DNA of 64,000 nt from the NCBI RefSeq assembly GCF_036237275.1, contig NZ_CP108352.1:7899501-7963500 (forward strand). Direction: 5' to 3'. This DNA is from Streptomyces sp. NBC_01353. GTDB taxonomy: Bacteria; Actinomycetota; Actinomycetes; Streptomycetales; Streptomycetaceae. Shown here piece by piece: positions 54,504-59,543 of the stretch (position 1 is its first letter; each line of letters begins with the position of its first letter). Below the pieces are notes generated by a model, which saw only the letters and a program-made list of their open reading frames with translations, ran no database searches and was not told the origin of the DNA. Both the position numbers and the translations under genes were made by a program.

Positions 54504-55418
54504 TCAGCGCATGTCGGCGGGGCGCTCGGCGCCCTGGAACGGGAAACGGCGGCGGAAGTCGTCGGCCGCGTCCTCGAGGGTGCAGAAGCTGACGCCCTCG
54601 TGGCCCGACACGTACTCGATGAACCGCTCCAGCATCAGCAGCACCTGGGGGCGCCCGCTCACATCGGGGTGCAGGGTGACCGGGACGACCGCATAGTCCA
54701 GCTCGCGGTGGACCCAGTCGAACTGGTCACGCCAGTCCTGCTCCAGGGCGCGCGGACTCACGTACCCGTGGCTGTTGTGCGCGTGCTTGTTGAACATCAT
54801 GGGCGGAAGGTCGTCGACGTACCAGTTGCCGCAGAACTCGACCAGGTCCACCTCGTGGCCGTGGACCAGCGGCTTCATCCAGTCCTTGGCCTCCTTCGTG
54901 TAGTCGATCTTCGTCCAGCTGTCGCCGACCCGGGCGTAGAACGGGGTGAAGTCCCGGTAGTTCTGGCTGTGGTCGTACGAGAAGCCGTACTTGTGCAGCA
55001 GCGCCGCCGTGTGCGCCGACATCTCCCACCACGGCGCCACATAGCCGCGCGGCCTACGGCCGGTGTACTCCTCGATCAACTCGACCGAGCGGGCGAGGAC
55101 GTCCTCCTCCTGTTGCGGGCTCATCGCGATCGGATTCTCGTGGGAGTAGCCGTGCGCACCGACCTCGTGGCCCGCCTCAACGACCATGCGGGTCTGCTCG
55201 GGGAAGGTCTCTATGGAATGGCCGGGGATGAACCAGCTGGTGCGGATCCCGTACCGCTCGAAGAGCTTCAGGAGCCGGGGCGTGCCGATCTCGCCGGCGA
55301 ACACACCGCGCTGGATGTCGTTGGGGGAGTCCTCGCCGCCGTAGCTGCCGAGCCAGCCGGCGACGGCGTCCACGTCGACGCCGAGGGCGATCTTGATGTC
55401 CTTGGTGGGGTGCGTCAT
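54504..55418 (-). CDS. NodB/PuuE-type polysaccharide deacetylase
   Basis: 304 residues. NodB-fold motifs are the metal Asp region [15 protein letters not shown] and the His pair in [11 protein letters not shown], with [10 protein letters not shown] and [15 protein letters not shown]. It is closer to PuuE-like amidohydrolases (allantoinase, N-carbamoyl-type) than to peptidoglycan deacetylases, and no signal peptide is present, so the substrate is probably a small cytoplasmic amide. ATG 55418 overlaps the stop of the racemase-fold gene (ATGA), placing both in one catabolic operon. Confidence 0.88.
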
Positions 55419-56581
55419 GCGGTGTGGGCCTTTCCGTACGTGTCGAGAAGGTGGTGCACGCGATCGATCGCGGTCGTCATGACCGCCTGGTCGGCGGCGC
55501 TCCAGGGGCGCTCGGCGAGACTGTGGGCGGAGATCCAGCCCGTCATCTCCGTGTCGCGGACGACCGGCGAGAGCAGCTGGGCACGGACTCCGTAGACGTC
55601 GATCAGAGCCTGCGGGGGTCGCGGGTCGCCGACGAAGCGCGGCTGTACGAGCGGGACCCGGTGGCGCTCCAGCCACTCCACGGTGTTCAGCCGACGCTGG
55701 TCGAGCGAGGCGTCGCGACGGATGGACCGGACGCCCGCGCCCAGCGCCTCGGCCGCGGTGAGATCCACGTGCAGACCGTGGCCCGGCAGGTCGAGGCGGA
55801 GCGTGGTGCGGTCGGCGCCGATCGCCTCCCGCAGCTCGCCGAGGACCTGTTGGAGACGGGTGCGCAGGCTGCCGGAGCGCAGCAGTTCACCGTGTCCCTC
55901 GAGGACCGGGTGCGCCCCGGCGAGGTCGAGCGCCTTCCAGAGCGTGGCGGCGACGCTGTCGAAGACCGGGACGCCGAGCGCCCCTTCGAGACCGGCGGCC
56001 GCCCGCGCCCCGTACACGTTGGTGCAGACGACGGCGACGGCGTGCGCTTCGCTGCCGGCGGCGTCCTCGATCTGCCGGGCGACATCACTCTCGGGGATCC
56101 GGGCGAAGGCCTCGTTGTCGCTGACGCCGAACGGCTCGGCGAGAAGGCACTCCAACCCCTCGGAGGCGTATGTCGTGACGATCCGCTCGGCGACGTCCCG
56201 GGTGTACGGCACGGCGAGACCGAGCCTGGTCACCCCGTAGGCGGCGCAGGCGTCGAGCAGGGCGAGCGTGGAGGTGGTGGCGGGGATTCCGGTCGCTTCG
56301 GTGAGGACGGCGCAGAGCGAGCGGTCGCGCTCGACGCCGAGCCAGGAGCCGGACGTGCCGTTCCAGACCAGGACGTCCACGGCCGCGTCGGCGAGCTGCC
56401 GGGCGGCGGCGATCATCGGCGCCGGGTCGAACTGGGCGTCGGAGCCTCCGTCGAGGGCGATCCGGGTGACGGGGACCCGCGCGAAGTGCGCGGTGTGCTC
56501 GGTTGCACCGTGCAGGAGGCGGTAGGTGACCGGCTCCAGGCAGGTGTTGGAGGACGGAGTGATCATGCCGATACGGGTCAT
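55415..56581 (-). CDS. Asp/Glu-racemase-fold enzyme (AMDase/maleate isomerase group) fused to a GAF domain
   Basis: 388 residues. The N-terminal part (1-230) has the maleate isomerase/arylmalonate decarboxylase opening [11 protein letters not shown]. Where maleate isomerase has the first catalytic Cys (CTS) this protein has Gly75-Thr76-Ser77 (WNGTSGSW); the second Cys is kept as Cys186 ([10 protein letters not shown]). Gly-Thr-Ser with one Cys is the pattern of arylmalonate decarboxylase (Gly74, Cys188). Residues 240-388 form a GAF domain ([40 protein letters not shown]). It overlaps both neighbours, with ATGA at each end. The substrate is unknown. Confidence 0.85.
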
Positions 56582-57903
56582 CGGACGGCCAGCCTCCGGC
56601 TGTAGTCGAGGACGAGTGACGAGACGGTGAACAGGACCCCGGCGCCGACGAAGTAGAGCAGCGCCCAGGTGTACGAACCGGTGCCGCCGACGATGTAGCC
56701 GACCGCGATCGGGGTGACGATTCCGGCGATGTTGCCGGACAGGTTCATGGCCCCGCCGACGACGCCGGCGTTGGCCCGGCCGGCCAGGACGGAGGGCAGC
56801 GACCAGTACAGGCCCGCCCAGCGCAGGAAGAACATGACGACGGAGAGCAGGGTCACGGCGGTCGTCGCGTCGGGCACCAGGACCACACCGAGGAGGCCCG
56901 CCACGACGGCCGTTCCGGCCACACCCATCATCGAGCGCATGACCTTGTTGGCGCCGGCGCCCGCGGCCTTCCAGCGGTCGGAGAGCCAGCCGCCGGTCAG
57001 CTCTCCGACGAAGCCCGCCCCGAAGATGACCAGCGTCGACCAGCCGATGGTCTTGATGTCGAAGCCCTTGGTCTCGGAGAGATAGAGCGGGCCCCAGGTG
57101 AGCAGTCCGTAGAAGACGCCGTTGAAGCCCATCCAGCCCAGGCACATGGCCCAGAACGAGCGGTGGCCGAGATACGGGCGCAGTCCGGTGCGCACGTCAG
57201 GGGGCCCGGCGGCGTCCTCCTCGGCATGCGCACGCTCGATGTACGAGGCCTCGGCGTCGTTGACCCCCGGGTGCTCGCGCGGGGTGTCGCGGATGTACCA
57301 GGCGGCGTACAGGCCGATGGCGACCGTCAGGATGCCGGCGATAACGAAGCTCAGACGCCAGCTGCCGGTCCAGGCGATCAGCGCGGAGATGATGACACCG
57401 CCGAGCGCCGCGCCGAGCGGGGCCCCGCCGTCGAGCAGCACGGCGCCGCGACCGCGCTCCTTGGCGGGCAGCCACTGGGCGTTGAGCTTGCCGCCCGCGG
57501 GCATGACGGGGGCTTCGACGGCGCCGAGGAGGAGTCGGTAGCCGAGCAGGGAGCCCGCGCCGGTGGCGGCGGCGGTGACGGCCTGGGCGGCGCCCCAGCC
57601 GACGCAGGCTCCGGAGACCATCCGACGCGGGCCGAAGCGGTCGGCCAGCCAGCCGCTGGGGATCTGCATCAGAGCGTACGTCCAGAAGAACGCGCTCAGG
57701 ACGAAGCCGGTGGTCTCCTTGGAGAGCCCGAGGTCCTCGGTGATCAGGGGCAGCGCGACGGAGACGGAACCCCGGTCGATGTAGTTGAGGGCGACGACAC
57801 CGAGCAGCAGGACGAACATCTTCCAGCGCACCCGGCTGTGGCGTCCTCCGCGGGCGGCGGCGGTGGTTTCCTCGGCGGTCGTGCCGACCGATGGGGTACT
57901 CAT
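56578..57903 (-). CDS. MFS transporter (ACS/tartrate-hexuronate family)
   Basis: 441 residues with 12 helices. The first is FVLLLGVVALNYIDRGSVSV, followed by the family loop MQIPSGWLADRFGPRRMVSG, and the ACS hallmarks LNYIDRG and GWLSDRWK. ACS carriers import organic acids such as tartrate, hexuronates or phthalate-like anions. As first gene of the operon with the racemase-fold and deacetylase enzymes, it probably brings in the substrate. ATG 57903 is preferred over the TTG at 57909. Confidence 0.9.
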   Translation of the reverse strand: MSTPSVGTTAEETTAAARGGRHSRVRWKMFVLLLGVVALNYIDRGSVSVALPLITEDLGLSKETTGFVLSAFFWTYALMQIPSGWLADRFGPRRMVSGACVGWGAAQAVTAAATGAGSLLGYRLLLGAVEAPVMPAGGKLNAQWLPAKERGRGAVLLDGGAPLGAALGGVIISALIAWTGSWRLSFVIAGILTVAIGLYAAWYIRDTPREHPGVNDAEASYIERAHAEEDAAGPPDVRTGLRPYLGHRSFWAMCLGWMGFNGVFYGLLTWGPLYLSETKGFDIKTIGWSTLVIFGAGFVGELTGGWLSDRWKAAGAGANKVMRSMMGVAGTAVVAGLLGVVLVPDATTAVTLLSVVMFFLRWAGLYWSLPSVLAGRANAGVVGGAMNLSGNIAGIVTPIAVGYIVGGTGSYTWALLYFVGAGVLFTVSSLVLDYSRRLAVR

Positions 57904-57975
57904 GGGCAAACCCTCGATTCACGGATCGCACAGGGTGAGACGTGAGAGACGCGGCCGGACTGCTCCGTTCCGCGT

Positions 57976-57989
57976 TTTGGTATACCAAA
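57976..57989. promoter_or_regulatory. GntR operator, perfect palindrome
   Basis: TTTGGTATACCAAA is a perfect 14-bp palindrome between the divergent MFS and GntR genes. It resembles FadR/VanR-type GntR sites with a GGTATACC core and should control both directions. Confidence 0.8.
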
Positions 57990-58020: not shown

Positions 58021-58034
58021 TTTGGTATACCGTG
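58021..58034. promoter_or_regulatory. Second GntR site (partial palindrome)
   Basis: TTTGGTATACCGTG repeats the GGTATACC core 45 bases from the first site and 24 bases upstream of the GntR start at 58059. Two sites suggest cooperative binding or separate control of each promoter. Confidence 0.7.
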
Positions 58035-58058
58035 ATGACTTCGATACGGGGAGGACGC

Positions 58059-58796
58059 ATGACCGGGACCCAGGCGGCGGACGACACGGCGCCGGCCGGC
58101 GCGGAGGCAGGCGCGGGGGGAGGTGCGGGGGAAGGCGACGCGGCGCCGGCGGTCGGCGGTGGATGGCTCCGCGACCAGGTCTGCGAGGGGCTGCGGGACC
58201 GCATCATCACCGGGCGCCTCAAGCCCGGCGACCGGCTGGTCGAACGCGACGTCGCCGAGGAGTTCGGGGTCTCCCGGGTCCCCGTGCGCGAAGCGATCCG
58301 CATCCTCATGAGCGAGGGATTCCTGCAGGCCCTCTCGCCGCGTCGGATCGTCGTCAAGGAGCTGTCGCGACAGGATGTCGAGAACCTCTTCGACATGCGC
58401 GAGGCCCTCGAGGTCCTCGCGGTCCGGCGCGCCGCCGAACGCCGGACCCAGGGTCAATTGGACGACCTGCACGCGCTGTTGGAAGAGGCCCGCAGGGCGA
58501 CGCTGTCCGGCAGGCCGGACCGCATCTCGCGCGCCAACACGGCCTTCCACCACTTCATCGTGGAGCTCTCGCGCAACGATCTGCTCGCCGCGACCCTGGA
58601 ATCGCTGGAGGGCAGGCTGCGCTGGCTCTTCCAGCAGATCGACGACCCGGGCTCGCTGTGGGACGAGCACCGGGTGCTGTACGAGGCGATCGCCGCCGCC
58701 GACGCCGACGCGGCGGCGGAGTGCTCACTGCACCACGTGCGCCACTACCGCGACGTGGCGATCCGCCTCCTCTTCGAACAGGGGGAATCGGCCTGA
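58059..58796 (+). CDS. GntR-family (FadR/FCD) transcriptional regulator
   Basis: 245 residues from ATG 58059 with GGGGAGG upstream. The first 35 residues are Gly/Ala-rich. The winged helix is WLRDQVCEGLRDRIITGRLK, PGDRLVERDVAEEFGVSRVP and VREAIRILMSEGFLQALSPR. The C-terminal FCD effector domain has NLFDMREALEVLAVRRAAER, NTAFHHFIVELSRNDLLAAT and HHVRHYRDVAIRLLF, with the metal-site His residues typical of FCD. It most likely represses the divergent MFS operon. Confidence 0.9.
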   Translation: MTGTQAADDTAPAGAEAGAGGGAGEGDAAPAVGGGWLRDQVCEGLRDRIITGRLKPGDRLVERDVAEEFGVSRVPVREAIRILMSEGFLQALSPRRIVVKELSRQDVENLFDMREALEVLAVRRAAERRTQGQLDDLHALLEEARRATLSGRPDRISRANTAFHHFIVELSRNDLLAATLESLEGRLRWLFQQIDDPGSLWDEHRVLYEAIAAADADAAAECSLHHVRHYRDVAIRLLFEQGESA

Positions 58797-58826: not shown

Positions 58827-59543
58827 CTAGCGGTGCTCGGGGTTCGGGAAGTCCGCCCGGCAGCCCGCGTCCCAGGCCGTGCGCTGGTTGCCGTGCGCCG
58901 GGATGCCGCCGGCACGCTTGAGCATCCCCGCCAGGTGCATCAGGTTCCACGCCATGAACGAGGTGTTGCGATTGGTGAAGTCGTTCTCGGGGCCGCCCGA
59001 GCCCGGGTCCAGATACGACGGCCCGGGGCCCGCCTCACCGATCCAGCCGGCGTCCGCCTGCGGCGGGATCACATAGCCCAGGTGCTGGAGGCTGTAGAGC
59101 ACGTTCATCGCGCAGTGCTTGACCCCGTCCTCGTTCCCCGTGATCAGACAGCCGCCCACCCTGCCGTAATAGGCGTACTGGCCCTCGCTGTTGAGGAGGC
59201 TGGAGCAGGCGTACAGTCGCTCGATCACCTGCTTCATCACCGAGCTGTTGTCGCCGAGCCAGATGGGACCGCACAGCACGAGGATGTCCGCCTGCATGAC
59301 GCGCTCGTACAGCTCGGGCCAGGCGTCCGACTCCCATCCGTGCTCGGTCATGTCGGGCCACACCCCGGTCGCGATGTCGTGGTCGACGGCCCGCACGAGG
59401 TCGGTCGCCACGCCCTGCCGCTCCATCACGGCCCTGCTGCGGTCGATCAGCCCCTCGGTGTTGCTGGCCTCGGGGGAACGCTTGAGCGTGCAGTTGACGT
59501 ACAGGGCGCGCAGATCGTCGTAGCGGTGCGGAGTCGCGGACAT
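58827..59543 (-). CDS. Flavodoxin/NADPH-dependent FMN reductase-like protein
   Basis: 238 residues: LYVNCTLKRSPEASNTEGLI (FMN phosphate loop), ADILVLCGPIWLGDNSSVMK, RVGGCLITGNEDGVKHCAMN, VLYSLQHLGYVIPPQADAGW. The fold is flavodoxin-like and may reduce quinones or azo compounds. ATG 59543 starts MSATPHRYDDL. It converges with the GntR gene (30-base gap) and is not clearly part of the GntR operon. Confidence 0.85.
   Translation of the reverse strand: MSATPHRYDDLRALYVNCTLKRSPEASNTEGLIDRSRAVMERQGVATDLVRAVDHDIATGVWPDMTEHGWESDAWPELYERVMQADILVLCGPIWLGDNSSVMKQVIERLYACSSLLNSEGQYAYYGRVGGCLITGNEDGVKHCAMNVLYSLQHLGYVIPPQADAGWIGEAGPGPSYLDPGSGGPENDFTNRNTSFMAWNLMHLAGMLKRAGGIPAHGNQRTAWDAGCRADFPNPEHR

Follow-up and report, generated by a model that had tools for sequence, protein, structure and literature searches.

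A protein of 388 residues encoded at positions 55415-56581 (minus strand) of the window, the whole stretch of 64,000 nucleotides analysed here, fuses an Amdase-type domain of the Asp/Glu-racemase fold to a GAF domain, and together with its relatives, termed AMDx, it forms a distinct branch of that fold, with glycine at the first catalytic cysteine position and cysteine at the second. This is a second Gly/Cys clade, and the genes that recur beside it suggest a role in breaking down cyclic imides or ureides, which makes its reaction testable on a short, defined set of substrates. Both the fold and the Pfam family are known ones; the subfamily is without an assignment and includes a GAF-fused form. 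AMDx-GAF is probably a degradation enzyme.

The fused protein and its catalytic pair

The N-terminal Asp/Glu-racemase-fold domain (residues 1-236; 55874-56581, minus strand) matches PF17645, Amdase, with 82.5 bits against a Pfam gathering cut-off of 25.9, and the GAF domain (residues 239-373; 55463-55867, minus strand) matches PF01590 with 33.9 bits against 22.4. The match to PF01177, at 23.3 bits, is under its Pfam cut-off of 31. The AlphaFold model of the protein has a mean pLDDT of 93.9. Within the GAF part 22 residues are invariant across 31 rows, and mean identity to AMDx-GAF over 30 pairs is 63.5% for the GAF part versus 68.2% for the N domain. The nearest relative from a named species is that of a Streptomyces, 83% identical; in another Streptomyces relative (L050) the frame stops at 258 amino acids, without the GAF part. 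When 396 genomes of the phylum, the protein's own among them, were searched with a profile, two had it at E ≤ 1e-40, and the protein is therefore rare in the phylum. A literature search, mainly of open-access journals, returned no paper dedicated to the clade.

The first-pass annotation had placed Gly75 in WNGTSGSW and Cys186 in VVCTN in this reading frame, and both are read there. The Gly75 codon (56357-56359, minus strand) falls at the place of the first catalytic cysteine of two-Cys relatives, and the Cys186 codon (56024-56026, minus strand) specifies the retained catalytic cysteine, the counterpart of Cys188 in arylmalonate decarboxylase (AMDase). The equivalence that had been drawn with AMDase is borne out by HMMER, which pairs Gly75-Thr76-Ser77 with Gly74-Thr75-Ser76 and Cys186 with Cys188, and the description of the protein as a one-cysteine enzyme is accurate for the two catalytic positions but not for the protein as a whole, which has other cysteines such as Cys14. 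In an alignment of AMDx-GAF with the best 80 of 183 relatives from a search of genome contigs, all 81 rows have glycine at the first catalytic place. With glycine there AMDx-GAF is, as had been proposed, no racemase or isomerase of the two-Cys type. Asn12, Thr76, Tyr126, Asn156, Cys186, Thr187 and Asn188 are likewise identical in 81/81 rows, position 77 is serine in 73 and alanine in eight, and Asp208 is aspartate in 80. The Gly75/Cys186 pattern, being identical in every aligned row, is more than chance, keeping in mind that the search for relatives was biased, with WNGTSGSW held by one of its six search patterns. A tblastn search of plasmids without that bias gave 111 records, from which 16 AMDx loci were taken; all 14 plasmid rows used in the tree have glycine and cysteine at the two places, and two further loci reached without the pattern (L132 and L188) are likewise Gly/Cys. 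AMDx coordinates in the loci are those of the tblastn match, ORF calling having preferred an antisense reading at some AMDx genes.

Over 196 matches, overlapping loci included, the catalytic pair is Gly/Cys in 106, Cys/Cys in 53, Cys/Asp in 27, Cys/Gly in four and something else in six. As an observation in its own right, PF17645-like genes also occur as tandem pairs, in which one member is Cys/Cys and its neighbor has cysteine first and aspartate second (WACTSGSF...DTA), the mirror image of the Gly/Cys arrangement of AMDx; both members are present in 27 of 27 such loci, overlaps counted (L005-L010, L012-L018, L103-L105, L110-L112, L115, L116, L119, L124, L125, L128-L130).

In a tree of 54 rows, 28 Gly/Cys rows, from Actinobacteria, Proteobacteria and one cyanobacterium, lie on one side of a branch with support 100/100. 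The AMDases (3dg9 and two plasmid genes) separate with 100/99 and the maleate isomerases with 100/100, and AMDx-GAF itself lies outside the AMDase clade. A second tree, from which four long rows (L004, L137, L019 and L123) were omitted, puts the Gly/Cys clade and the AMDases on the same side with weak support, 79/51; the residue table of 28 AMDx rows is without L004, L019 and L123. In the first tree one protein of the window's genus (L004, from genome G023) comes out together with the Gly/Cys rows and has neither cysteine (WSGSSSDL and GTE at the two places); its branch is long and its placement unsure.

Gene neighborhood and recurrent partners

AMDx-GAF is, as read from the gene order, the middle gene of a small predicted operon on the minus strand. 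Upstream is an MFS importer (56578-57909; PF07690, 194.6 bits) nearest to the D-galactonate transporter subfamily, though its 276.3 bits to TIGR00893 are under the cut-off of 395, and downstream is a hydrolase of the polysaccharide-deacetylase fold, of the HpPgdA/cyclic-imide-hydrolase kind (54504-55418; 468.8 bits to 3qbu). ATGA overlaps occur at both joints, the TGA of the MFS gene with the ATG of AMDx-GAF and the TGA of AMDx-GAF with the ATG of the hydrolase. The accessible text of PMC9304392 relates HpPgdA to cyclic imidases and describes HxnM, an HpPgdA relative proposed from mutant metabolites to open a cyclic imide in Aspergillus and 64.2% identical to a cyclic imide hydrolase homologue of Pseudomonas putida. 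The kinship of the window's hydrolase with imidases would thus run through the HpPgdA group.

Divergent from the operon is a GntR/FCD regulator gene (58032-58796, plus strand; PF00392 and PF07729), the true start of which is probably downstream of 58032. Between it and the MFS gene are two TGGTATACCR palindromes, TGGTATACCA at 57978-57987 and, 45 bp from it, TGGTATACCG at 58023-58032, both putative operators. With at most one mismatch the window has two sites of this pattern against a mean of 0.11 expected, and none of 100 shuffles reaches two. In 15 of 17 GAF-form loci of named Streptomyces the MFS gene is again preceded by two sites, spaced 40-46 bp, and at least one site is present anywhere in the locus in 25 of 30 GAF-type and six of 50 GAF-less loci. 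Genome-wide, YGGTATACCR has four places, two of them in the MFS-operon promoter, and a reversed control pattern has three; on our reading the other two places are at unrelated genes, so no further regulon member emerged from this search. Beside the GntR gene lies an NADPH-dependent FMN reductase-like gene (58827-59543, minus strand; PF03358) with no sign of operon membership.

The wider neighborhood was followed in 96 loci, comprising 30 GAF-type and 50 GAF-less genome loci and 16 plasmid loci, with flanks of up to 8-9 kb, some shorter; the loci share descent and their counts are not independent. The GAF fusion is thus present in 30 of the 80 genome loci. A cyclic amidohydrolase lies within the flanks in 85/96 (25/30 GAF-type, 48/50 GAF-less and 12/16 plasmid loci, the match in L178 being partial) and in 11 none was found there. 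Its kind varies: an imidase occurs in 22/30 GAF-type, 0/50 GAF-less and 1/16 plasmid loci, and a hydA-like enzyme in 6/30, 48/50 and 11/16, respectively. Counted over the 80 genome loci, 22 have an imidase, 54 a hydA- or AllB-like enzyme, three both (the best match there being AllB) and seven neither; the two kinds largely replace each other. AllB is the best match at four GAF-type loci (L036, L042, L043 and L051). In 21 of 22 loci the distance from the AMDx stop to the start of the imidase match is 0-100 bp. Among 246 genomes of the window's genus, searched at E ≤ 1e-60, AMDx-GAF is found in five and the imidase in 11, with both in all five, where the five are close GAF-type relatives only, as at least one GAF-less AMDx (that of L188, genome G443) lies beyond the threshold. 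The Fisher value for this co-occurrence, 6.4e-8, ignores the kinship of related species and serves as a guide only.

Other genes of ureide and nucleobase metabolism are met less regularly. UraD matches are present in 11/50 GAF-less and 1/30 GAF-type loci, and UraH matches in 10/50 and 1/30; the same queries matched none of the 16 plasmid loci, one of which (L173) has uraD and hydroxyisourate hydrolase by annotation. An NCS1 permease occurs in four of 30 GAF-type loci. At L188 there are AllG, an NCS2 permease and an amidase near AMDx, and its GAF-less AMDx and imidase (L188:4000-9836) adjoin the NCS2 permease and a gene that we read from its sequence as a Rieske-type oxygenase. A literature search on the gene combination yielded background only, and the main text of the paper on the reductive urate pathway (PMC12507026), as far as accessible, has neither ‘racemase’ nor ‘dihydropyrimidinase’.

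A second gene of the Asp/Glu-racemase kind is present in 47/50 GAF-less, 7/16 plasmid and 0/30 GAF-type loci. Racemases carry CFGDPG and a cysteine before the second turn. In 53 of the 54 matches here the motifs are AFGDPG and (A/G)GAPL(A/S)G, one match being without them, and a protein seemingly without both catalytic cysteines (AAFGDPG, AGAPLAG) accompanies hydA and the GAF-less AMDx, for example at L054:5722-6510 and in L163, L167, L168, L170, L171, L172 and L176.

Imidases also occur apart from AMDx. Four others of the genus (L189-L192), 63-69% identical to the window's imidase homologue, lie near asparaginase-like and short-chain dehydrogenase-like genes (the asparaginase and MFS genes of L189 were checked against Pfam and the remaining neighbors read from sequence), and within these four loci there is no AMDx at E ≤ 1e-3; these imidases would belong to a different imide pathway. 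In a further genome (G342; locus L193) an imidase match of 94% identity covers residues 127-304 only, with no AMDx at E ≤ 1e-3 within the locus, and is possibly a remnant.

Candidate reactions

The reading that we favor, tentatively and with less than even confidence, is that AMDx-GAF works through a carbanion with a single thiol, most probably as a decarboxylase, in cyclic imide or ureide catabolism, with its GAF domain as a ligand sensor. The N domain would form a carbanion or enediolate, with a carboxylate held in a dioxyanion hole made up of Thr76, Ser77, Tyr126 and the backbone around Cys186-Thr187, and Cys186 would protonate the intermediate from one face; the opposite face has no thiol and decarboxylation therefore fits better than racemization. 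The polar conserved residues Asn12, Arg35, Asn156 and Asp208, with Arg35 and Asp208 presumed to lie in the site, suggest that the substrate would be hydrophilic, for example a ring imide or ureide bearing a carboxylate, or the diacid formed when such a ring is opened, rather than an arylmalonate, and the partner hydrolase may act on the same ring. The GAF domain would sense a small molecule and tune the enzyme. Against this reading stand Asn156, which breaks the AMDase hydrophobic pocket that is held to drive carboxylate loss (PMC12576825 and the accessible text of PMC4996985), the 11 loci with no cyclic amidohydrolase in view, the lack of UraD or UraH query matches in the 16 plasmid loci, and the presence already, in some of the loci, of UraD, which is a decarboxylase of ureide breakdown. 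Neighbors also vary from clade to clade, and the substrates may vary with them.

For assignment as AMDase the accessible text of PMC4996985 demands all 12 criteria, with identical or similar residues, and considers action on arylmalonates very unlikely for proteins without the hydrophobic pocket. The Gly/Cys pair is there, and so are the dioxyanion residues, Thr76, Ser77 (alanine in 8/81) and Tyr126 standing for Thr75, Ser76 and Tyr126. Leu40, Val43 and Met159 have only similar hydrophobic counterparts (Val38, Ile41 and Phe159), in a part where the N-terminal alignment is less sure. Pro14-Pro15 is replaced by Pro9-Ser10, with Ser10 at the place of Pro15, Tyr48 by Asp48 (a variable column, where the alignment is less sure), Val156 by the invariant Asn156 and Gly189 by Thr187 in 28/28 AMDx rows; the long motifs 11 and 12, LMGTSLSF and ILLSCGGL, give way to VWNGTSGSW and AVVCTNV. 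The NCBIfam AMDase model NF052327 scores 72.7 bits against a curated cut-off of 225. The decarboxylase reading of the first-pass annotation thus keeps the Gly/Cys pair, Thr76, Ser77 and Tyr126 and loses its AMDase part, and an arylmalonate decarboxylase is unlikely, indeed hardly probable at all, despite the Pfam Amdase match; a decarboxylase of another substrate is possible. TRAP and ABC transporter genes do recur beside plasmid relatives, and the accessible text of PMC4996985 names transporter genes (TRAP, ABC and tripartite tricarboxylate) and mandelate racemase as AMDase neighbors, but a mandelate-racemase product is annotated in none of the 15 annotated plasmid loci, going by annotation only.

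Comparison with maleate isomerase supports a rather different possibility, somewhat unlikely in our estimate, of a one-thiol maleate-isomerase-like or epimerase-like enzyme in which Cys186 would add to or deprotonate a half-amide or diacid delivered by the imidase, and water or another residue would complete the reaction. PSSN, the tyrosine, the asparagine and the second cysteine are functional residues of maleate cis-trans isomerase, and AMDx-GAF has Asn12, Tyr126, Asn156 and Cys186 at these places; together with Arg35 these residues are common to it and the isomerase 4fq7. The opening PSSNT, earlier described as typical of decarboxylases and isomerases alike, is indeed a maleate-isomerase opening but not that of AMDase, which has PPAxG there. 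In the structural comparison that had been proposed, the best match is maleate isomerase but in a tie with AMDase, which lends the isomerase-like enzyme some support and gives no choice between it and the decarboxylase. Among the relatives of the partner hydrolase are enzymes that open cyclic imides (PMC9304392, accessible text). Against such an enzyme are the glycine in place of the first cysteine in every aligned row, a clade apart from the isomerases, and the presence in the same genome of two isomerase-like paralogues with both cysteines (L002 and L003). The AMDx site would best be described, from its residues, as a mix of isomerase-type polar residues with AMDase-type glycine and dioxyanion residues.

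Less probable again, and unlikely, is some other single-thiol reaction on a ureide intermediate, such as a retro-aldol, lyase or hydrolytic one. Ureide and amide hydrolases recur as partners, and the paralogue seemingly without both catalytic cysteines that accompanies the GAF-less form makes it seem that the fold is put to other uses here; yet the residues point to no specific reaction, and the catalytic cysteine and dioxyanion residues are kept. That AMDx-GAF is a sensor or regulatory protein without catalysis, with GAF as its main part, is very unlikely: the frequency of the fusion speaks for it, and the fixed active-site residues, the 50 of 80 genome loci without GAF and the GntR gene with adjoining palindromes already serving the operon speak against it. 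The decarboxylase reading has also a specific form, decidedly unlikely as it stands, in which AMDx would be a cofactor-free ureide decarboxylase acting on a 5-carboxy-hydantoin-type ring (e.g. alloxanate to 5-hydroxyhydantoin) or on the ureidomalonate that results from opening it, while ring opening by the imidase or hydantoinase partner would give a ureido acid (e.g. ureidoglycolate) to be finished by the allantoin pathway. Were this form true, AMDx with its ring hydrolase would parallel UraD with allantoinase in a different fold and with a GAF-regulated form, and would be a possible clue to the natural use of AMDase-like chemistry; the natural substrate of AMDase is stated to be unknown in the accessible text of PMC4996985.

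Comparison with known systems

Having glycine in the first catalytic position does not by itself identify an arylmalonate decarboxylase, and this matters because PF17645, though named Amdase, also takes in, above its cut-off, maleate-isomerase-like proteins and the tandem pairs. AMDase of Bordetella bronchiseptica (3dg9; NF052327) is alike in fold, in the Gly/Cys pair and in the Thr-Ser-Tyr dioxyanion residues. It differs in that AMDx has Asn156, Asp208 and Arg35, the last at the place of AMDase Gly37 where the N-terminal alignment is less sure, in the GAF domain added in AMDx-GAF, in clade, and in the imidase or hydantoinase neighbors of AMDx. Beside one of the two plasmid AMDases (L180) lie a gene of the mandelate-racemase family and genes for a tripartite tricarboxylate transporter, as published for AMDases. 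Among class-mates of a Burkholderia, 0/229 genomes exceed the NF052327 cut-off, and 0/143 that of TIGR02990, the model of the ectoine-utilization protein EutA. The latter is the top NCBIfam match of AMDx-GAF, with 96 bits and short of its cut-off of 318; the likeness is in the CT- at the second site, and an annotated EutA (L174) lacks PSSN and has cysteine as its first catalytic residue, in contrast to the PSSN and glycine of AMDx. From maleate cis-trans isomerase (4fq7, 2xec) AMDx is distinguished by glycine for the first catalytic cysteine, by Thr76-Ser77 where the isomerases have Leu-Val, and by a clade of its own. Allantoin and hydantoin racemases (3qvj, 5lg5) use two cysteines according to the accessible text of PMC12661438, and the first of these is glycine in AMDx.
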